Assembly (NCBI GenBank): GCA_028819845.1
Contig: JAPPKS010000021.1
Span: 62,001-126,000 of the forward strand
DNA: 64,000 nucleotides
Source of the DNA: Candidatus Poribacteria bacterium
Lineage (GTDB): Bacteria; Poribacteria; WGA-4E; PCPOR2b
Direction: 5' to 3'
This document shows positions 50,107-60,658 of this stretch, one piece after another (position 1 is the first letter of the stretch; each line of letters begins with the position of its first letter). The notes below the pieces were generated by a model, which ran no database searches, was not told where the DNA came from, and saw nothing but the letters and a program-made list of their open reading frames with translations. Both the position numbers and the translations under genes were made by a program.

Positions 50107-51108
50107 ATGGAAATACAAAAAACATTATCACGTGTAATTTGTTTCTGTCTTCCGCTCTTGTACAGCACGGTACTTGCGATGGACGTAGAAGCACAAGCGC
50201 CGAATCGGTCGACCATTGCGGTTGCAAGTGATGGCGACGTAGGCATCTGGCTGATGAATGATAACGGCGGTGGCGCCCGCCTCATTTTGCCGATTGACGG
50301 CAATCCTATGCCGTCGGGTTTGGTGTGGTCTCCGGACGGAACAATGATAGCATTTCACACGGAGATAGATAAAAACGTTGATATTTACGTGGTTAACGGC
50401 GACGGAGAAAACCTTCGTAAGCTCACGGAACACGAATCAGAGGACAGCTGGCCCACATGGCACCCCAGCGGGCAGAAGATAGCCTTCCACACCAACCGTG
50501 ACGGCAATCTTGAGATTTACACAATGACGTCACGCGGGGATATTCTGGACAACCTGACCAACGATGCTGTCAAGGACCACTATCCGGCGTGGTCGCCGGA
50601 CGCTCGACGGATAGCGTTTGCCTCCAAACGCGGGAAGACGCTGGGCGATATATTCCTGATGAGCCAGAATGGCGAGATTTTGGAAAATCTCACGAACGTT
50701 CGGGGTGAAGATTTTCAACCCAGGTGGTCTTGGGACGGCAAGCAGATTGCGTGGACCTCTGCTCGAAATGGCGCAGCAGAAATTTGGGCGATGGACGCGG
50801 ACGGCGCGAATACAAGGCAGATTAGCGATCTGCAGGATCCAAAAGCGGCAGGCTTTCGAGTTCGGGAACCCTCTTGGTCGCCGGATGGCAAACTCATCGC
50901 TTCGGCGGCGCTTGGGGGCGGCAGCGCGACTATTCGCGTGCATTCGGCAAAGGGCAACCTGAATTGGATGGACCTGCAGGCAATCGGCGCCCAAGACCGT
51001 TCCCCAGCGTGGTTCGATCCGAAATTCGTAGTTGAGTTCTCCGTTACGCCAGTCGAGAAACGTCCAATGACGTGGGGATGGGTAAAGCAAATAGTGCAAG
51101 ATGATTGA
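50107..51108 (+). CDS. Secreted PD40/TolB-like propeller 5
   Basis: This fifth array member has 333 residues. The signal peptide (VICFCLPLLYSTVLAMDVEA) is followed by VWSPDGTMIAFHTEIDKN, TWHPSGQKIAFHTNRDGN, AWSPDARRIAFASKRGK and RWSWDGKQIAWTSARNG. The subgroup block ISDLQDPKAAGFRVRE is followed by SWSPDGKLIASAALGGG. The tail is SPAWFDPKFVVEFSVTP ... TWGWVKQ. The AGGAGG Shine-Dalgarno lies nine bases before the ATG. It is most like propeller 6. Confidence 0.86.
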   Translation: MEIQKTLSRVICFCLPLLYSTVLAMDVEAQAPNRSTIAVASDGDVGIWLMNDNGGGARLILPIDGNPMPSGLVWSPDGTMIAFHTEIDKNVDIYVVNGDGENLRKLTEHESEDSWPTWHPSGQKIAFHTNRDGNLEIYTMTSRGDILDNLTNDAVKDHYPAWSPDARRIAFASKRGKTLGDIFLMSQNGEILENLTNVRGEDFQPRWSWDGKQIAWTSARNGAAEIWAMDADGANTRQISDLQDPKAAGFRVREPSWSPDGKLIASAALGGGSATIRVHSAKGNLNWMDLQAIGAQDRSPAWFDPKFVVEFSVTPVEKRPMTWGWVKQIVQDD

Positions 51109-51185
51109 CTTGCTAGATTGATATGTGAGACCTCACACTCTTAAACGCGGTTACGCATAAACCTTTAATCAATGAGGTGATTACG

Positions 51186-52196
51186 GTGCAAAATCGAATA
51201 GTGTTGATGTGCGTCTGGTTATTGGGGATGTTGGTATTGAGCAACGCAGTATTAGTTGTGGGGGCGGGTGCAAAAGCGCCCGCGAGGGAAGTTATCGCAC
51301 TCACGACTAATGCGGGTGAAGGGGTAGGTATATGGATGCGCAGCCCCGATGGGAAGAACCCGCGGCTGATTCTAGAAATTGACGGAGACCCGATACCCTC
51401 GGGCTTGCAATGGTCTCCGGACGGCAACCAAATTGCGTTCTTCACCAAATTGGAAGACAACATTGATATCTACGTGGTGGATGCCAACGGCGAAAATCTC
51501 GAAAAACTTACCAACCACGAGGCGGAAGACAGTTGGCCCACCTGGCATCCTAGCGGCCTAAGGATGGCATTCCAAACTAATCGTGACGGGAATTATGAGA
51601 TTTACACGATGAATACGCGGGGTGACATTTTGGGTAACCTGACGAACGATCCAGCCAAGGACCAGTATCCGGCATGGTCGCGAAACGGGCGGCAGATTGC
51701 CTTTGCGTCGAAACGAGGCAAATCCCTTGGAGACATCTACCTTATGGATGGTGAAGGGGAGATTCTGCAGAACCTTACTGATGTTCGAGGCGAGGATATC
51801 CAACCGACATGGTCGTGGGACAACAAAATGATTGCTTGGACGTCTCGTCGAAGCGGCAATGATGAGATTTGGACAATGGACGCCGCGGACGGCGGGAATA
51901 TTTTGAAGATTAGCGACCTTCAAGACCCAAAGGCGGGCGGTTTCCCCAACAGGGAGGCGAGTTGGTCGCCGGACGGGAAACACATTGCTGCGGCGGCGCT
52001 CGGCGGCGGCCAAGCGAACATCCGTATCCACCCGGCGACCGGCAATCTGAACTGGAATGATCTCCCAAACATCGGCTTGCAGAACCGCTCGCCGGCGTGG
52101 TTCGATCTTGATTTCGTGGTTGAATTCTCCGTTGAACTTGTTGACAAACAAGTATTAACGTGGGGTTGGATTAAGCAGGTTGGCGGCGATGACTAA
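51186..52196 (+). CDS. Secreted PD40/TolB-like propeller 6
   Basis: This sixth array member has 336 residues. The signal peptide (VLMCVWLLGMLVLSNAVLVVG) precedes QWSPDGNQIAFFTKLEDN, TWHPSGLRMAFQTNRDGN, AWSRNGRQIAFASKRGK and TWSWDNKMIAWTSRRSGN. The subgroup block is ISDLQDPKAGGFPNRE, and the tail SPAWFDLDFVVEFSVEL ... TWGWIKQ. The GTG at 51186 is preferred: it stands six bases after AGGTGA, and the GTG at 51177 overlaps that ribosome site. Confidence 0.85.
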   Translation: MQNRIVLMCVWLLGMLVLSNAVLVVGAGAKAPAREVIALTTNAGEGVGIWMRSPDGKNPRLILEIDGDPIPSGLQWSPDGNQIAFFTKLEDNIDIYVVDANGENLEKLTNHEAEDSWPTWHPSGLRMAFQTNRDGNYEIYTMNTRGDILGNLTNDPAKDQYPAWSRNGRQIAFASKRGKSLGDIYLMDGEGEILQNLTDVRGEDIQPTWSWDNKMIAWTSRRSGNDEIWTMDAADGGNILKISDLQDPKAGGFPNREASWSPDGKHIAAAALGGGQANIRIHPATGNLNWNDLPNIGLQNRSPAWFDLDFVVEFSVELVDKQVLTWGWIKQVGGDD

Positions 52197-52263
52197 TACG
52201 CTTTGGTATTGGAGTTTTAACCATCAGTCAGATTCCGGATATCAAACAGTGAGGTAGCAATTT

Positions 52264-53241
52264 ATGCAAATTCAGAAAATGCGGCGTTATGTTGTGTTTG
52301 TCGGCGTGTTTCTTTTTGTCAATGGCGTACTTTTGACGCACGTCCATGCGCAAGCGCCTAAGAAGCCAACGCTTGCGGTTTCCAGTGTAGGCGAAGGGGC
52401 GATCATCTGGTTGATGAATTTGGAAGGGGAAGATGTCCGCCCGCTGTTGGCGATTGACGCTAATCCACTGCCGTTGGGTCTGGAATGGTCGCCAGACGGG
52501 CGAAGGCTTGCGTTCCATACCGAGGTGAGGAAGAATATTGATGTCTACGTGGTGAATGCCAACGGGAAAAACCTCAAACGGCTCACCGAAGATGCTGCGG
52601 AAGACAGCCGGCCGAGTTGGCATCCGAGCGGCAAAACGATTGCCTTCACGACCAATCGGGACGGTAACTTTGAAATCTACACGATGACGGATGGGGGCCA
52701 GGCACTGAAGAACGTTACGAACGACGCGGTCAAGGACACCGATCCGGCGTGGTCGCCGGACGGACGAAGAATGGCGTTTACTTCCAAACGGGGGAGGACG
52801 CTTGGGGACATTTACGTCATGGACGCGAACGGGGAGAACATGCGAAATCTGACGAAAAACCGATCCGCGAATACCCATGCCGCGTGGTCGCCCGATGAGC
52901 GGAAGATTGCGTTTATCTCGAACCGAACGGGTGCTGCCAACATCTATGCGATGGATGCTGCCGATGGTGCAAATCAGGTACCCATCGCGTGTTGCCGCGA
53001 TCCGGAGTGGTCTCCGGACGGAGAAAAGATTGCCGGCGCGACATTTGGGGGCGGTTCAAGGATTTTCATCCGGGATGCGGACGGAAAAGGGCCTCAGCTG
53101 GAACTTCCGGGGGTCAGTAACGTCAGCCGTGCGCCCGCGTGGTTTGACCCTGATTTTGTGACCGTATTCTCAGTGTCGCCTGCCCAGAAGCAGGCGCTGA
53201 CTTGGGGCTGGTTGAAGAAGGCGGCGCGTAACGAACAATAA
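52264..53241 (+). CDS. Secreted PD40/TolB-like propeller 7
   Basis: This seventh array member has 325 residues. A signal peptide (YVVFVGVFLFVNGVLLTHVHA) precedes EWSPDGRRLAFHTEVRKN, SWHPSGKTIAFTTNRDGN, AWSPDGRRMAFTSKRGR and AWSPDERKIAFISNRTG. A cysteine-pair block ACCRDPEWSPDGEKIAG, shared with propeller 8, replaces the ISDLQDP block of propellers 4-6. The tail is APAWFDPDFVTVFSVSP ... TWGWLKK. A GAGGTAG ribosome site precedes the ATG. Confidence 0.86.
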   Translation: MQIQKMRRYVVFVGVFLFVNGVLLTHVHAQAPKKPTLAVSSVGEGAIIWLMNLEGEDVRPLLAIDANPLPLGLEWSPDGRRLAFHTEVRKNIDVYVVNANGKNLKRLTEDAAEDSRPSWHPSGKTIAFTTNRDGNFEIYTMTDGGQALKNVTNDAVKDTDPAWSPDGRRMAFTSKRGRTLGDIYVMDANGENMRNLTKNRSANTHAAWSPDERKIAFISNRTGAANIYAMDAADGANQVPIACCRDPEWSPDGEKIAGATFGGGSRIFIRDADGKGPQLELPGVSNVSRAPAWFDPDFVTVFSVSPAQKQALTWGWLKKAARNEQ

Positions 53242-53303
53242 ACTATACCAGAGTTTTCAGTTGCCGCCCGATTTGATTTGAGAGAACTATCTTATCTAAC
53301 GTA

Positions 53304-54290
53304 TTGCAGGGGGTGAGGGCTATCCAAAATCAGAAAACAGAAATCTTGAAAATTAGTTTGGTTGTGCTTTTTCTAATGGGTGCGATGTTCCTGTCACGCG
53401 CCGAGTCGAAAGCACCGAACAATCCAACCCTCGCGGTCTCTACTAACGCGGACGAGGGCAATATCTGGTTGATGAACCCCGACGGCAACAATCAGCGTGC
53501 ACTGCTGTTGGTAAACGGGCAACCCTTGGGATTGGAGTGGTCGCCGGATGGCACAAGGTTGGCGTTCCACACTGAATCGAAGAAGAACATTGATGTCTAC
53601 GTTGTGAATGGGGATGGAATGAAGCTGAAACGACTCACCGACGATGCCGCAGAAGACAGTTGGCCGAACTGGCATCCTGGAGGTGGGAAGCTAGCCTTCA
53701 CCTCAAACCGCGACGGGAACTTTGAAATCTACACCATGAACGCGGCAGGGCAAATCATTGAGAATATTACAAACGACCCCGCTGACGACATCCAACCCGC
53801 GTGGTCGCGGGACGCCCGAAAGATTGCCTTCTCTTCGAAACGGGGTAAGACGATTGGAGACCTCCACCTCATGGACGCGAACGGAGAAAATCTGCAAAAT
53901 CTGACCAATCACCGCGCCAAGGACTCGCACCCTGCATGGTCGCCGGACAATGAAAAAATCGCTTGGATTACGGAACGTTCCGGGCATGCTGAAATCTTTG
54001 TAATGGGTGCAAATGGCAAAAACCAGATAAAAATCGGGTGTTGTAGAGACCCTGAGTGGTCACCGGACGGCAAAGAACTTGCTACGACTACGTTCGGGGG
54101 CGGCGTAGCGAAGATTATCATTCAAGATGCTGATGGAAAAGGAAATCGCACAGAACTTCCAACGATAGGCAACTTTAACCGCGCCGCAGCGTGGTTCGAC
54201 CCTGAATTTGTGACGTTTTTCTCCGTGTCGCCTGCCGGCAAGCAGGCGCTGACTTGGGGTTGGCTGAAGCAGGTTGGACGCAGCAAATAA
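53304..54290 (+). CDS. Secreted PD40/TolB-like propeller 8
   Basis: This eighth array member has 328 residues from the TTG at 53304. A signal peptide (ISLVVLFLMGAMFLSRA) precedes EWSPDGTRLAFHTESKKN, NWHPGGGKLAFTSNRDGN, AWSRDARKIAFSSKRGK and AWSPDNEKIAWITERSG. It shares GCCRDPEWSPDGKELA with propeller 7. The tail is AAAWFDPEFVTFFSVSP ... TWGWLKQ. The start is uncertain: aligned with propellers 6 and 7 the first codon would be ATC 53322, seven bases after GGGGGTGAGGG-type purines. TTG 53304 and GTG 53313 are the only standard in-frame starts. Confidence 0.84.
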   Translation: MQGVRAIQNQKTEILKISLVVLFLMGAMFLSRAESKAPNNPTLAVSTNADEGNIWLMNPDGNNQRALLLVNGQPLGLEWSPDGTRLAFHTESKKNIDVYVVNGDGMKLKRLTDDAAEDSWPNWHPGGGKLAFTSNRDGNFEIYTMNAAGQIIENITNDPADDIQPAWSRDARKIAFSSKRGKTIGDLHLMDANGENLQNLTNHRAKDSHPAWSPDNEKIAWITERSGHAEIFVMGANGKNQIKIGCCRDPEWSPDGKELATTTFGGGVAKIIIQDADGKGNRTELPTIGNFNRAAAWFDPEFVTFFSVSPAGKQALTWGWLKQVGRSK

Positions 54291-56163: not shown

Positions 56164-56676
56164 ATTGCGACAAAGTTCTGTGTGGGAGCTAATGCAGGCG
56201 CCGATTGGATATTGTCTGAACTGTGATTCGTGTGATTAAATGATGGGCTATGATTTAGGGATCAACCGACCGAATAGGGCGGGCGATAGTCTTCAGCACT
56301 TGTAGTCTTGACTTGTATCCGGCGTATTTGAAGCGTTCAGTTTGCCGTAGAGTTATGTGTCGCGATTCGGAGATTGCGCCTACCGGGTTGGATTCTAGAT
56401 TGGCGGCGGAACGATTCGCCGCTAGGTGCAACCTATAGGAGCTGGTTGAGCTTTGATTTGTGTGATTAAAGGCTGTCCGTGATTATTTGGCTCAACCCCT
56501 TTATACGCTTCAATCAAGTGTGTAACTCCTACGGCTTTTGGAATTATTTTGCTCTGGATGGACGCTATAATGGCTATTTCTAAGTCCGACAGCAGCATCT
56601 AACGACTTTTGCTAAAATTTTTTAAGCGACGCCCGGTTCAATTCCTCCTACCGACAACCATTCCTTCAAAGGGGTG
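56164..56676. other. Intergenic region upstream of duplicated cassette 1
   Basis: This stretch contains a palindrome at 56362-56384 (GCGAT, TCGGAG, ATTGC, GCCTACC) and two copies of TGTGTGATTAAA (56231 and 56459). At 56468 it meets the left edge of the sequence repeated at 58922 (AAAGGCTGTCC...). I see no gene. Confidence 0.55.
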
Positions 56677-56788
56677 CGACATTTTTTGCTTTTGTCAACT
56701 TTTGTCGCACATCCCCCAAAACCCTTGTGTGGCAAGGCTTAGCGCACTGGTATTCCCAAAATTCCTTGAATTGTGTCAACTTTTGTCG
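56677..56788 (+). promoter_or_regulatory. Three 12-bp dyads upstream of sigma-54 promoter (cassette 1)
   Basis: The sites are CGACATTTTTTG (56677-56688), CAACTTTTGTCG (56696-56707) and CAACTTTTGTCG (56777-56788), fitting CRAC-N4-GTYG or its half-sites. Spacings of 19 and 81 bases equal those in cassette 2. They lie about 155-266 bases before the predicted transcription start, where enhancer-binding proteins usually bind. Confidence 0.6.
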
Positions 56789-56915
56789 CACCCCTTTCCA
56801 AATCTCGTCAGGACGCTGCCACTCCAATTTGAAAAACAATTTAACTGTCCCCATCCCTTGCCACATCAGGGTTTCCGAGGCTAATCTGTTGCCAAATTGT
56901 AGGGAATTATTCGTC

Positions 56916-56932
56916 TTGGCACACAATTTGCT
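56916..56932 (+). promoter_or_regulatory. Sigma-54 promoter of cassette 1
   Basis: TTGGCACACAATTTGCT matches the -24/-12 consensus TTGGCAC-N5-TTGCW, with the GG and GC doublets separated by exactly ten bases (56918-19 and 56930-31). Transcription should start near 56943. The ~100 bases around it (56865-56960) are virtually identical in cassette 2, while the flanks have diverged. Confidence 0.8.
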
Positions 56933-56962
56933 TATAAGATAGCCATTAAGTAACACTTAGAA

Positions 56963-56980
56963 CTGCGGAACGGTCCGCAG
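56963..56980 (+). other. 5' leader hairpin of cassette 1
   Basis: CTGCGGA, loop ACGG, TCCGCAG forms a seven-pair stem about 20 bases into the predicted transcript. The same element is at 59416-59433. Confidence 0.6.
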
Positions 56981-57035
56981 TGATCACATAAATTTCTCTC
57001 AACCAAGAATTGACAGCGTGAGGGGGGTGATAACC

Positions 57036-57833
57036 ATGTTTACGATTAGACAGAAGCTGTTTCTAGGTGGGGCAGTCTTGCTTTCAGTGCTACTGGTTGC
57101 GGGTAGTTACTTCGGTAGCCGTTGGCTCTTTGGTCCCGATGTTGAACCTACACCGGAACACCTATTGACGGCGGAACGTTCCTATGCCACCTCTGTTTCT
57201 CCAGATACGCCATCGGTGTCAGGGACAGATTGGGTATCAGAACTTGAACAATCACTCAGTGATGCCGATGATTCTGAAACTGAAACTGACTCTGCTAAAA
57301 TTGATGAAGATTTGGAGGCTCAGTTGGCGGCGCTTAGCGATGAGGAGTTAACTGCTCTTGCTGAGGCGCTGGAACAGGAGGAAGCGGAATCTAGTAAATA
57401 TCCTGAAGTACCTGATGGGTTTCCCATGACTCCGGTGTGGTTGGAAGATTATTTTCATGAACGTGATTTTTCCGCCCACGTCACGTTATACCGTGCGTTG
57501 ATAGAATTGTGGAATCGGGGTAATCACGATTTCGTGAATGGTACCTTAGATGAAGACACTGGTAGGGTCTACCCAATCTATCCGGACGTGATATACGTTA
57601 AGTGGGATAGTTATACCCGTGAAGGTCCTGATGGAGAGTCTATTGAGGTGCCTTATATCAGCGCTAGGCTTGGGGCTTCCAGCACAGTTGATCCTCTATT
57701 GAATAGCGATGAGGACCTTTTTACAGAGGAAGAAATACTGTCGGGGGCTTATAAGACAAAGTTTCCCGGTATAAAATTAGTTGAGTACGATAATGCAGGG
57801 TATGACCTGACTACCCTTCTTGGCGACTATTAA
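57036..57833 (+). CDS. Membrane-anchored acidic protein, cassette 1 gene A
   Basis: This is a 265-residue protein that I do not recognise. One membrane segment near the N-terminus (LFLGGAVLLSVLLVAGSYFG, ~8-27) should anchor it with the rest outside the cytoplasm. Residues ~65-120 are an acidic, Ser-rich helical stretch (SELEQSLSDADDSETETDS, then EDLEAQLAALSDEELTALAE). The C-terminal ~145 residues are the conserved domain (PVWLEDYF, YRALIELWN, HDFVNG, YVKWDSYTREGPDG, EDLFTEEEILSGAY). Its paralogue is at 59489. The ATG at 57036 follows GAGGGGGGTGATAACC; a start at 57018 overlaps that site. Gene B begins 12 bases after its stop. The sigma-54 promoter upstream implies activated expression. Confidence 0.85.
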   Translation: MFTIRQKLFLGGAVLLSVLLVAGSYFGSRWLFGPDVEPTPEHLLTAERSYATSVSPDTPSVSGTDWVSELEQSLSDADDSETETDSAKIDEDLEAQLAALSDEELTALAEALEQEEAESSKYPEVPDGFPMTPVWLEDYFHERDFSAHVTLYRALIELWNRGNHDFVNGTLDEDTGRVYPIYPDVIYVKWDSYTREGPDGESIEVPYISARLGASSTVDPLLNSDEDLFTEEEILSGAYKTKFPGIKLVEYDNAGYDLTTLLGDY

Positions 57834-57845
57834 AAGGAGAATATC

Positions 57846-58202
57846 ATGAAATCGAAAAGATTGGTTATGTTGAGTAGTCTCTTGGTCCTCACGACCTTTA
57901 TTATTTGTGTCAGTGTATATGCGTATAACGCGTACTGTAGCAAGTCGGTAAGCAATAACAAGCTTGAAATTAAGTCATCAATGAATAATACAGGTCTTGA
58001 TAACGGATACTATTCTGTACATGCTCGGGTTGGCCCTCCGCCTGGCACAACCCTAAAGAATCCGTATGGAAATCAGGATATAAGTTTATCTTTGAAGGCT
58101 TCAGGTAGCATTTCCCAGTACGGTTATGGAAGTGCTTATGTGGATGGTATAAATGTGGTTAACACCTTTTGTTCGAAATTTGATAGTGTGACCCATCCAT
58201 GA
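57846..58202 (+). CDS. Small secreted protein, cassette 1 gene B
   Basis: This is a 118-residue protein that I do not recognise. The signal peptide (LVMLSSLLVLTTFIICVSVYA) is followed by YNAYCSK, which is identical in the paralogue at 60311. The mature ~90 residues are rich in Ser, Gly, Tyr and Asn and have few charged groups, and two cysteines (YCSK and FCSK) could form a disulphide. It ends in SVTHP; the paralogue ends in SESHP. An AAGGAGA ribosome site precedes the ATG. No pilin (type IV) or lipobox motif is present. It is probably co-expressed with gene A. Confidence 0.82.
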   Translation: MKSKRLVMLSSLLVLTTFIICVSVYAYNAYCSKSVSNNKLEIKSSMNNTGLDNGYYSVHARVGPPPGTTLKNPYGNQDISLSLKASGSISQYGYGSAYVDGINVVNTFCSKFDSVTHP

Positions 58203-58921
58203 AGCTGTCTTTAGACGATTGACATGTTCCAGCAGCTATACCTCGTCCACGGATGTCCTCGTGGGCGGGGTTTCTAATCTAAATACCCCTCGCTTGTTTC
58301 TTGTTTCGAGACCACTAGCAAGACTACCGAACCCACGCAAAGCGAATGTTCACGGATTCACCGCCTATTTCAAATAACCACATTCTATGCTCCGCGCACA
58401 GCCAACACACCCAATAGCTTGTGCTGACTATCAAAAAACGCAACAAACGCCGTAGAAGCAGTGACAAGTACTAGTATTAAAGCGTTTCGCGTTTCAGGTC
58501 TATAAATAAATTGCATCTAGCTCTCGGAAATGCCTGGTGCACTCAACAATACCCATCCAACCGCCTGAACCAATCAAAATATTCCTTCATCTGTCGCCGC
58601 TTCTCTCATTTCCCATATCTCAACCGAGCTACGGCGCCGTGTTCTGCGAGTTCCCCCTTGGCGTAATGCACCGTCATCTTTGAATCCTGCGACCTGCCGG
58701 CAGTTTGCACCTCTACAACCTCCTTCATCCTTGGTAAGTAGGGGGATGAGAGTTGACATGCTTTGGACGGGGGAGCCGGTTGTGTTAGCGCATATATTGT
58801 GCGAGGTGGTCGCGTGAATGTCGGAGCCCGTCGGCTTAGCGCTGAGAGCCTTTCTGAGAATTGAGCATTACGGTTATCACACCGGCACCAGTTGATTTGA
58901 AGCAAAACTCTCAATTGTCAG
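58203..58921. other. Region between cassette copies with gene remnant
   Basis: No intact gene is visible. Parts of 58540-58780 resemble 61290-61760 beyond cassette 2. A fragment of the isomerase gene (58785-58838) and an inverted-repeat junction (58847-58928) lie at the right-hand end. Confidence 0.6.
58785..58838 (-). pseudogene. 3' fragment of the sugar isomerase gene
   Basis: Read on the minus strand, 17 codons plus stop give ADGLRHSRDHLAQYMR, matching the C-terminus ADGLRRSRDHLAQFMR of the gene at 61765. An in-frame stop adjoins it on the 5' side. The fragment marks how far the cassette duplication reached. Confidence 0.75.
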
Positions 58922-58928
58922 AAAGGCT
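58847..58928. repeat. Imperfect inverted repeat at duplication junction
   Basis: Arms of 19 bases, AGCCTTTCTGAGAATTGAG (58847-58865) and CTCAATTGTCAGAAAGGCT (58910-58928), pair with one mismatch around a 44-base middle. The right arm overlaps the first bases of the second cassette unit. Confidence 0.6.
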
Positions 58929-59130
58929 GTCCGTGATTATTTGGCTCAACCCCTTTATACGCTTCGATCAAGTGTGTAACTCCTACGGCTTTTGGAATTA
59001 TCTTACTCTGGATGGACGCTATAATGGCTATTTCTAAGGCCGACAGCAGCCTCTGACGACTTTTACTAAAAGTTTTTGAACGACACCCGGTTGAATTCCT
59101 CCTGCCGACAACCATTCCTTCAAAGGGATG

Positions 59131-59242
59131 CAACATTTGTTGCTTTTGTCCACTATTGTTGCACCTCCCCCAAAACCCTTGCCTGACAGGGCTTCGCGCA
59201 CGATTTTACTCCAATTTTCCCGAATTGTGTCAACAAATGTTG
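59131..59242 (+). promoter_or_regulatory. Three 12-bp dyads upstream of sigma-54 promoter (cassette 2)
   Basis: The sites are CAACATTTGTTG (59131-59142, a perfect palindrome extended to GCAACATTTGTTGC), CCACTATTGTTG (59150-59161) and CAACAAATGTTG (59231-59242, also perfect). The spacing of 19 and 81 bases is that of cassette 1. The GTCG half-sites of cassette 1 are GTTG here in every copy. Confidence 0.62.
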
Positions 59243-59368
59243 CTCCCCTTTGCCTACGCCTCCAGACTGCTGCCACTCTCGACCGAAAAAAATTTATCTG
59301 CCCGTATCCCTTAGCACATCAGGGTTTCCGAGGCTAATCTGTTGCCAAATTGTAGGGAATTATTCGTC

Positions 59369-59385
59369 TTGGCACACAATTTGCT
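59369..59385 (+). promoter_or_regulatory. Sigma-54 promoter of cassette 2
   Basis: TTGGCACACAATTTGCT is identical to the cassette 1 promoter, with GG at 59371-72 and GC at 59383-84. The start site is predicted near 59396. Confidence 0.8.
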
Positions 59386-59415
59386 TATAAGATAGCCATT
59401 AAGTAACACTTTGAA

Positions 59416-59433
59416 CTGCGGAACGGTCCGCAG
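59416..59433 (+). other. 5' leader hairpin of cassette 2
   Basis: CTGCGGA, ACGG, TCCGCAG is identical to the leader hairpin of cassette 1. Confidence 0.6.
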
Positions 59434-59488
59434 TGATCACATAAATCCCTCTCGACCAAGAAGTGACAGCGGTAGAAAGGTGATAACC

Positions 59489-60289
59489 ATGTTTACGAGT
59501 AAACAGAAAATTTTGGTGGGCGTCGCAGTTTTGGTCGCCGTGTTACTGGTTGCGGGCAGCTATTTCGGAAGCCGCTGGCTCTTTGGTCCCGATATTAAAC
59601 CTACACCAGAACACCTATTGACGGCGGAACCTTCATATTTCACCTCAGTTTCCCGCGGTACACCATCGGTTTCAGGAGCAGATTGGGTATCAGAACTTGA
59701 ACAATCATTCAGCGATACCGATTCGGCAACTGAATCTGACTCAACTCAAATTGATGAAGACTTGGAGGCTCAACTGGCGGCGCTCAGCGATGAGGAATTC
59801 ACCGCCCTTGCCGAGGCGCTCGAACAGGAGGAAACCAAATCCAGTAAATACCCGCCAGTGCCTGATGGGTTTCCTTCAGACCTCAAGCCAGTTTGGCTTG
59901 AAGACTATTTTGACGAGGACGATTTTTCCAACCACGTGACAATGTACCGCGTCTTGATAGAACTCTGGAATCAGGGAGACCACGATTTTGTAAATGGTAG
60001 TATCGATACCGACACCGGCAAGGTGTACCCGCTCTATCACGACGTCGTATATGTTACGTGGGACAGCTATTTTCGTGAAGGTCCCAACGGAGAACCTATC
60101 GAAGTCAAATATCTCAGCAGCAACCTCGGTACTCACGACACAGTCGGCTCCTTCAACGATGCAGGCGAAGATCTTTTTACCGAGGAAGAGATAATGTCAG
60201 GTGCTTATTTAACCAAGTATCCAGGTCTAAAATTAGTTGATTATAACAGTGCAGGGTATCACCCTGCAAATGTCCTCAATGACTATTGA
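59489..60289 (+). CDS. Membrane-anchored acidic protein, cassette 2 gene A
   Basis: This 266-residue paralogue of the protein at 57036 has the same layout: membrane segment ~8-27 (ILVGVAVLVAVLLVAGSYFG), acidic helical stretch (SDTDSATESDSTQIDEDLEA) and conserved C-terminal domain (PVWLEDYFDEDDFS, LIELWNQGDHDFVNG, EDLFTEEEIMSGAY). Differences concentrate in the middle of the C-terminal domain. The ATG at 59489 follows GAAAGGTGATAACC. Gene B starts 21 bases after its stop. The function is unknown; the surface or periplasm is the likely site. Confidence 0.85.
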   Translation: MFTSKQKILVGVAVLVAVLLVAGSYFGSRWLFGPDIKPTPEHLLTAEPSYFTSVSRGTPSVSGADWVSELEQSFSDTDSATESDSTQIDEDLEAQLAALSDEEFTALAEALEQEETKSSKYPPVPDGFPSDLKPVWLEDYFDEDDFSNHVTMYRVLIELWNQGDHDFVNGSIDTDTGKVYPLYHDVVYVTWDSYFREGPNGEPIEVKYLSSNLGTHDTVGSFNDAGEDLFTEEEIMSGAYLTKYPGLKLVDYNSAGYHPANVLNDY

Positions 60290-60310
60290 TGACTACTAAA
60301 GGAGATTATC

Positions 60311-60658
60311 ATGTTTAAAAAATTGGTTATGTTCAGCAGCATCGTATTGTTAGCATCTCTCGTTATTTGCTTCGCTGCATATGCCTATAACGCCTATTGC
60401 AGCAAGACCATCAAACAAAGCTCGCTTACCATGCGTGGCGCAATGAATAATCACAATCTCACTAACGGCATGTATGTTATATATGCTAAAGTTACTAATC
60501 CTATCACACAAGCCAATAACTTTGGCAACCAACAATACTCTCGATCTGTGGCTTCAACGGGCAGTATTTCCAATGGAGGTTACTCAAATGCTTTTGTTTA
60601 CGGCTATGATGCAAGCGGCCAATATCAATCTGCTAGTGATTCCGAGAGCCATCCATAA
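60311..60658 (+). CDS. Small secreted protein, cassette 2 gene B
   Basis: This 115-residue paralogue of the protein at 57846 has a signal peptide (VMFSSIVLLASLVICFAAYA) and the shared YNAYCSK after it. MNNHNLTNGMYVIYAKV parallels MNNTGLDNGYYSVHARV. The second half has diverged strongly, with only the GSIS/GY pattern and the final SHP retained. It has one mature cysteine instead of two, so an internal disulphide is not possible. A strong pre-peptide with a variable mature part is compatible with a secreted binding or signalling protein, but this is speculation. Confidence 0.82.
   Translation: MFKKLVMFSSIVLLASLVICFAAYAYNAYCSKTIKQSSLTMRGAMNNHNLTNGMYVIYAKVTNPITQANNFGNQQYSRSVASTGSISNGGYSNAFVYGYDASGQYQSASDSESHP

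Follow-up and report, generated by a model that had tools for sequence, protein, structure and literature searches.

Two tandem gene cassettes in a poribacterial genome, probably under sigma-54 control by a two-component system encoded at another locus

Introduction

Poribacteria are an uncultured candidate phylum, best known as symbionts of sponges. One 64-kb stretch from a draft genome of this group (referred to here as the window, G000:C12:62001-126000; genome G000, 4.61 Mb in 35 contigs) contains a membrane protein gene and a gene for a small secreted protein, set behind a candidate sigma-54 promoter with remote dyad sequences. What switches these genes on, and to what end? We consider it likely that the window carries sigma-54-dependent operons activated in trans by the two-component system at a second locus, C11, with products that probably remodel the cell surface or matrix, and that the module spread by duplication and its operators were re-coded. 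All of the evidence is sequence-based, the assemblies are drafts, and the paralogous loci that are compared are partly non-independent.

The promoter and the duplicated cassette

An earlier note on this DNA held that an element at 56916 fits the sigma-54 -24/-12 consensus with a ten-base gap between GG and GC. The 17-mer TTGGCACACAATTTGCT is an exact strict match, with GG at 56918, GC at 56930 and ten bases between them, and it satisfies TGGCAC-N5-TTGCW. The pattern TTGGCACN5TTGCW has two matches in the window against 0.03 expected; the second belongs to another cassette, at 59369-60658, that is absent from the earlier note. The upstream region, the promoter and the genes, here called A and B, are all repeated with a start-to-start spacing of 2450-2462 bp, with 2453-2456 bp from the first cassette to its duplicate, and the gap between A and B is usually 10-21 bases. 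The main features are as follows.

56468..60658, plus strand: tandem duplication including promoter and dyads, unit about 2455 bp
56916..56932, plus strand: sigma-54 -24/-12 promoter, copy 1, TTGGCACACAATTTGCT, predicted transcription start about 56942
56963..56980, plus strand: 5'-leader inverted repeat CTGCGGAACGGTCCGCAG, about 20-40 bases past the predicted start
57036..57833, plus strand: gene A1, with transmembrane (TM) anchor, acidic linker and C-terminal alpha/beta domain; frame open from GTG 57018, ATG 57036 with ribosome site GAGGGGGG
57846..58202, plus strand: gene B1, predicted small secreted seven-strand beta-sandwich
59369..59385, plus strand: sigma-54 promoter, copy 2, same 17-mer as copy 1, heading the tandem duplicate of the cassette
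59416..59433, plus strand: 5'-leader inverted repeat, copy 2
59489..60289, plus strand: gene A2, 73% identical to A1
60311..60658, plus strand: gene B2, 44% identical to B1

Sigma-54 itself is encoded by this bacterium, as a search of the assembly found an intact rpoN gene of 573 aa with the RpoN box ARRTVAKYR. G000 has this one rpoN only; a second, divergent rpoN-like gene is present in G001-G006, G008, G009 and G012 (DNA-binding domain E about 1e-24 to 1e-26). When 21 genomes were pooled, the strict promoter pattern was found 156 times and its reversed form 29 times.

Additional copies of the cassette lie elsewhere in the genome. The third (A3, B3), at C11, stands behind a kinase gene and a gene for an enhancer-binding protein (EBP), and the fourth, at C12b, has the gene order B-A and upstream of it only a C-terminal EBP remnant (tblastn E 6e-13). 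A further copy at C4 has promoter and dyads followed by a short broken frame that runs off the contig end. The leader repeat CTGCGGAACGGTCCGCAG, in its exact form with R and Y allowed, occurs four times in the genome, once per cassette and nowhere else, and in copy 4 both of its arms have changed together. It may act as an RNA hairpin or as a DNA palindrome; the folding energy of the whole leader RNA was no better than that of shuffled sequences (z -0.7 to -1.9).

Just upstream of the cassettes, at 50107-54290, the window encodes four TolB-like beta-propeller proteins in a row, apparently a tandem array of paralogues.

Remote dyads and other upstream elements

Putative EBP dyads lie upstream of both window promoters, and two further elements upstream of copy 1, none of them assigned to a strand.

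56677..56688, no strand: putative EBP dyad 1, CGACATTTTTTG, 7 of 8 positions of CRAC-N4-GTYG, at -239 in four genome copies
56696..56707, no strand: putative EBP dyad 2, CAACTTTTGTCG, at -220, longer form TTGTCMACN4GTYGC
56777..56788, no strand: putative EBP dyad 3, CAACTTTTGTCG, at -139
59131..59142, no strand: copy 2, putative EBP dyad 1, CAACATTTGTTG
59150..59161, no strand: copy 2, putative EBP dyad 2, CCACTATTGTTG
59231..59242, no strand: copy 2, putative EBP dyad 3, CAACAAATGTTG
56723..56737, no strand: dyad of a second kind, CCTTG-TGTGG-CAAGG, at -193
56856..56874, no strand: element CCTTGCCACATCAGGGTTT, at about -60, an inverted copy of 56719-56737

The three CRAC-N4-GTYG dyads described earlier hold up in part: those at 56696 and 56777 are exact and their remote positions are conserved, but the one at 56677 deviates at one base. 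Taken by itself, the short motif is no commoner in the window than chance predicts (5 found, 4.75 expected); what supports the dyads is their shared placement in four copies, together with the longer form. The dyad positions -239, -220 and -139 are shared, to within two bases, by all four cassette copies of G000. Of the longer form TTGTCMACN4GTYGC about 0.5 matches would be expected in the 4.6 Mb genome, and there are five. They belong to the two window copies, C11, C12b and C4, and each lies some 220 bases upstream of the promoter there. The dyad patterns were written after viewing the copies, so that their genome-wide uniqueness is a test of specificity rather than a discovery.

The element near -60 is common to the C4, C12b, C12a and C20 systems, and the second kind of dyad has counterparts at similar positions, degenerate there, in some paralogous systems with other EBP dyads. 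More generally, CCTTG-N5-CAAGG near -193 and CCTTGnYACATCAGGGTTT near -60 are found, more or less degenerate, in several paralogous systems, and these two elements may bind a shared protein. An IHF-type site, which the earlier note had suggested, was not found, the IHF consensus WATCAAN4TTR being absent between dyads and promoter even with one mismatch. The conserved block of about 100 bases around the promoter, also described there, is real between the two window copies, but it does not extend to the other two copies for -55 to -10; by this comparison it is for the most part a mark of recent duplication.

The proteins encoded by the cassettes

A membrane-anchored acidic protein and a small secreted protein of unrecognized families had been predicted from the letters alone, and both descriptions stand. 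The A and B frames are conserved in relatives and are thus real ORFs. Neither gene has a match above the curated cut-offs of Pfam or NCBIfam, or a PADLOC match at E 0.1; weak Pfam matches of A (Metallophos, RsiG, DUF6531) and of B (GRP, SoxE_N) were all below cut-off and were rejected. A scan of a genome-contig collection with A1 returned no match. Of the 73 genomes of the order, 65 have family A, with as many as 28 copies in one genome; the 12 genomes of the phylum that fall outside the order have none. We also rejected a mobile element as the source of the cassettes, since phage and plasmid collections contained no homologue of A.

The structure model of A1 (mean pLDDT 83, above 90 in most of the domain) comprises a TM helix joined by a disordered acidic linker to an alpha/beta domain at the C terminus, and this fold had no match below E 0.001 in the PDB or among the viral models of BFVD. 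Some members of the family have a lipobox in place of the TM helix, which would put the domain outside the cytoplasm. For B the model (pLDDT 92.6) has a signal helix and a seven-strand sandwich, whose best PDB matches by Foldseek are weak Ig/FnIII-like sandwiches, including CsgH and CsgC (2n59, 2xsk); on this model B is predicted to be a secreted Ig-like sandwich of seven strands. A simple rule finds a small signal-bearing ORF directly after 32 of 80 A genes, a few of these being A-type or chance frames. Predicted fold class and topology favour a role at the surface or in the matrix, probably with A as the anchored partner of B.

The probable activator

The earlier note had argued that control of the cassette comes from elsewhere, and indeed no match to a kinase or EBP was found anywhere in the window, nor any EBP remnant upstream of the window copies, which must therefore be served in trans. 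G000 encodes 18 full sigma-54 activators and one weak match. At C11 a PAS-PAS histidine kinase (543 aa), a REC-AAA+-Fis activator (477 aa), dyads, promoter, A3 and B3 follow one another on one strand. The kinase contains HEINNP and no membrane span, as in a soluble protein. The activator carries Walker A and B motifs, the receiver Asp and GAYTGA, and it combines a receiver, a sigma-54 AAA+ domain and a Fis-type helix-turn-helix (HTH). Four EBPs of this genome have GAYTGA as the sigma-54 contact motif and most relatives have GAFTGA; the conservative Y variant is probably active. From the adjacency at C11 we infer that this EBP matches the operator, and the C11 kinase and EBP are the probable cognate pair of the window cassettes.

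The loci compared contain 85 ORFs of family A, and sites were scored with a simple weighted consensus of our own, whose threshold (24 of 27) was picked after viewing the distribution. Sites reaching this threshold were present upstream of 25 of 84 A genes, in 2 of 84 of the same regions read backwards and upstream of 2 of 112 other ORFs in the same loci; one of these last two is a WD40 gene at C25 behind the identical 17-mer. A genes with an EBP gene directly upstream have such an intergenic site at 10 of 10 independent loci, against 13 of 74 for the others (Fisher p = 4e-7). The loci that are EBP-linked or bear a site span several genera (G000, G003, G005, G009, G025, G030 and G039). No strong site precedes the other 61 of the 74 homologues without an EBP neighbour, so sigma-54 control of family A is not universal. 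The search of host and relatives proposed with the original observation thus found the element at homologous cassettes, including every one next to an EBP gene.

Alternative explanations

The promoter match could be a coincidence, with a housekeeping promoter serving the cassettes. The two-mismatch version of the pattern is at chance level in the window, which is a point for this reading and also means that it is the strict match that matters. We regard coincidence as highly improbable, as the two window copies, C11 and C25 all have exactly the same 17-mer, and every EBP-linked locus has a site, in other genera as well. The window copies might instead be decaying duplicates that keep promoter-like sequence and have lost expression. 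The broken frame behind promoter and dyads at C4, and the reduction of the EBP gene at C12b to a remnant, speak for this reading. Against it, both window copies retain open frames, ribosome sites and dyads, and their promoters have stayed identical while A has diverged to 73% identity and B to 44%. This is what selection on all parts would produce, and decay is in our view unlikely. In the main reading, the window cassettes are very probably switched on by the sigma-54 promoter and a matching two-component regulator whose genes lie at another site of the genome.

There is a small but real chance that this regulator is not specifically the C11 protein and that another paralogous EBP (C12a or C20), or several at once, controls the window. 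The EBPs of C11, C26, C12a and C20 are closely related, forming one clade with three EBPs of G009; C12a is on the same contig as the window; and several systems share the -193 and -60 elements. As close relatives, the C12a and C20 proteins could cross-regulate, but the dyad type of the window adjoins C11 only, and C26, C12a and C20 each lie beside a different half-site. As for the products, the pair might serve contact-dependent antagonism, for instance as toxin and immunity protein: B would be secreted as the effector, and A would confer immunity from the membrane. Such a pair would suit a small and diverse secreted partner, the duplication of the pairs and the many A genes that lack a detected B. 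The lack of a PADLOC match, the compact Ig-like sandwich of B with no resemblance to a toxin, the position of A before B and the long disordered acidic linker of A all speak against antagonism, which we hold to be improbable.

Proposed mechanism

Under the preferred reading, control by C11, the soluble PAS-PAS kinase would sense an internal signal and phosphorylate the NtrC-type EBP, which would assemble on all three dyads, some 240, 220 and 140 bases upstream. With the DNA looped, the AAA+ motor of the EBP would open the sigma-54 holoenzyme at TTGGCAC-N5-TTGCT, so that genes A and B are produced together. The inner membrane would hold A, whose domain would lie outside the cytoplasm (other members of the family are anchored by lipid); B, a small Ig-like sandwich, would be exported, and the two would probably remodel the cell surface or matrix, A serving as the membrane-tethered partner of B. 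The module would have spread by duplication of cassette plus operator, and in related systems the operator half-sites and the EBP HTH would have changed together to give several insulated switches. Computational support exists for the promoter, the operator, the EBP linkage, the duplication and the sequence families; we infer the steps of phosphorylation, binding to DNA, transcription and export, and also that A and B are partners.

Relation to known systems

The C11 system resembles NtrB/NtrC-type sigma-54 control (NtrC, AtoC, ZraR and PrsR of PEP-CTERM systems) in its REC-AAA+-Fis HTH activator, soluble PAS kinase, remote dyads and -24/-12 promoter. It differs from these in that four EBPs of its genome have GAYTGA rather than GAFTGA and its targets are undescribed families. 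In NCBIfam the activator scored below the cut-offs for the NtrC equivalog of nitrogen regulation (345.8 against 558.6 bits) and for the PEP-CTERM response regulator PrsR (PEP_resp_reg, 299.4 against 502.6 bits). Sigma-54 control of the bacterial exterior is an established theme, with EPS, flagella, LPS, lipoproteins and wall precursors named (Francke et al. 2011, PMC3162934); the present case shares with it the action of sigma-54 on membrane-anchored and exported products, and Poribacteria are unmentioned there. B is similar to the curli accessory proteins CsgC and CsgH as a small secreted Ig-like sandwich of similar size, a likeness of fold class only, as there was no sequence match and the Foldseek hits were not significant (E 0.007 and 0.02, TM-scores 0.34-0.49).

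Poribacterial WD40 proteins with a Por secretion tail were described by Kamke et al. (2014, PMC3909097), and genes of the same class follow the C11 and C12b cassettes and stand behind the C25 promoter. The one after the C12b cassette has a Por-secretion/FlgD-like tail. At C25 (L067 2842-2858, G000:C25:100841) the 17-mer upstream of the WD40-repeat protein gene lacks dyads. Sigma factors go unmentioned in Kamke et al. (2014), the main paper on single-cell genomes, which does not report the WD40 proteins as sigma-54 controlled either, and a 2025 survey covering the sigma-54 regulons of 16 phyla (PMC12316311) makes no mention of Poribacteria. A search of the open-access literature for Poribacteria and sigma-54 returned only unrelated work, and earlier work may exist elsewhere. 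What is known, then, is the NtrB/NtrC-sigma-54 control logic; what is new is two cargo families and a re-coded operator series with constant layout. The cassettes offer a concrete and testable sigma-54 regulon for an uncultured candidate phylum and link a dedicated sensor to two protein families that are unannotated and restricted to the order. If B proteins face the host, this could be one way in which such bacteria change their surface on demand.

Apparently re-coded operators in paralogous systems and relatives

Three further kinase/EBP pairs of G000 share the layout of C11 and differ in half-site. At C26 the three dyads keep these offsets but are built from another half-site, of GACACATTTGTGTC type, and GACACATTTGTKTM occurs three times in the genome, each time at C26. 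The C12a and C20 operators follow this layout too, each with a half-site of its own, and their predicted targets are DsbD/CcdA-like membrane proteins. The recognition helices of the C11, C26, C12a and C20 activators also differ, reading TRQALNKRL, SRQALHNRL, TRQALHNRL and SKNALHKRL. In other genera the intergenic regions carry tandem palindromes of other kinds, namely TGTAAAgaatcTTTACA and TGGAAAgaatcTTTCCA (one base different in each half-site), TGCAA-N5-TTGCA, ACGCAATTTTTGCGT and TGTAGGGAgTtCCCTACA; at L084 and L088 no palindrome array was seen. Given these different half-sites and arrays, the activator-operator pairs appear to have diversified, and the comparisons suggest that switches of this kind are found across the order in versions that differ in their DNA code.

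The four paralogous systems of one genome, with one layout and different half-sites, make a natural data set on change in EBP-operator specificity. A broader proposition, on which our judgement is evenly balanced, is that within one order a self-contained module (kinase/EBP, three-dyad operator, sigma-54 promoter, A and Ig-like B) has been repeatedly duplicated and its EBP-operator pairs re-coded, giving several insulated switches per genome for distinct surface proteins. If true, this would be a natural series of re-coded EBPs controlling two undescribed, lineage-specific protein families.

Several of these loci have peculiarities of their own. At C26 (L069 2555-3392) the sigma-54 site and three dyads precede a 108-aa ORF and a 75-aa lipoprotein like a truncated A, followed by kinase and EBP. 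The DsbD/CcdA-like targets (L172 60-2096 and L174 763-2790) have a thioredoxin-like CxxC part, and each lies behind its own kinase/EBP pair. In G039 (L075 2256-7860, L100 2730-6108) tandem A cassettes stand behind TGGAAA-N5-TTTCCA arrays, and one of the A genes is apparently split into two frames.
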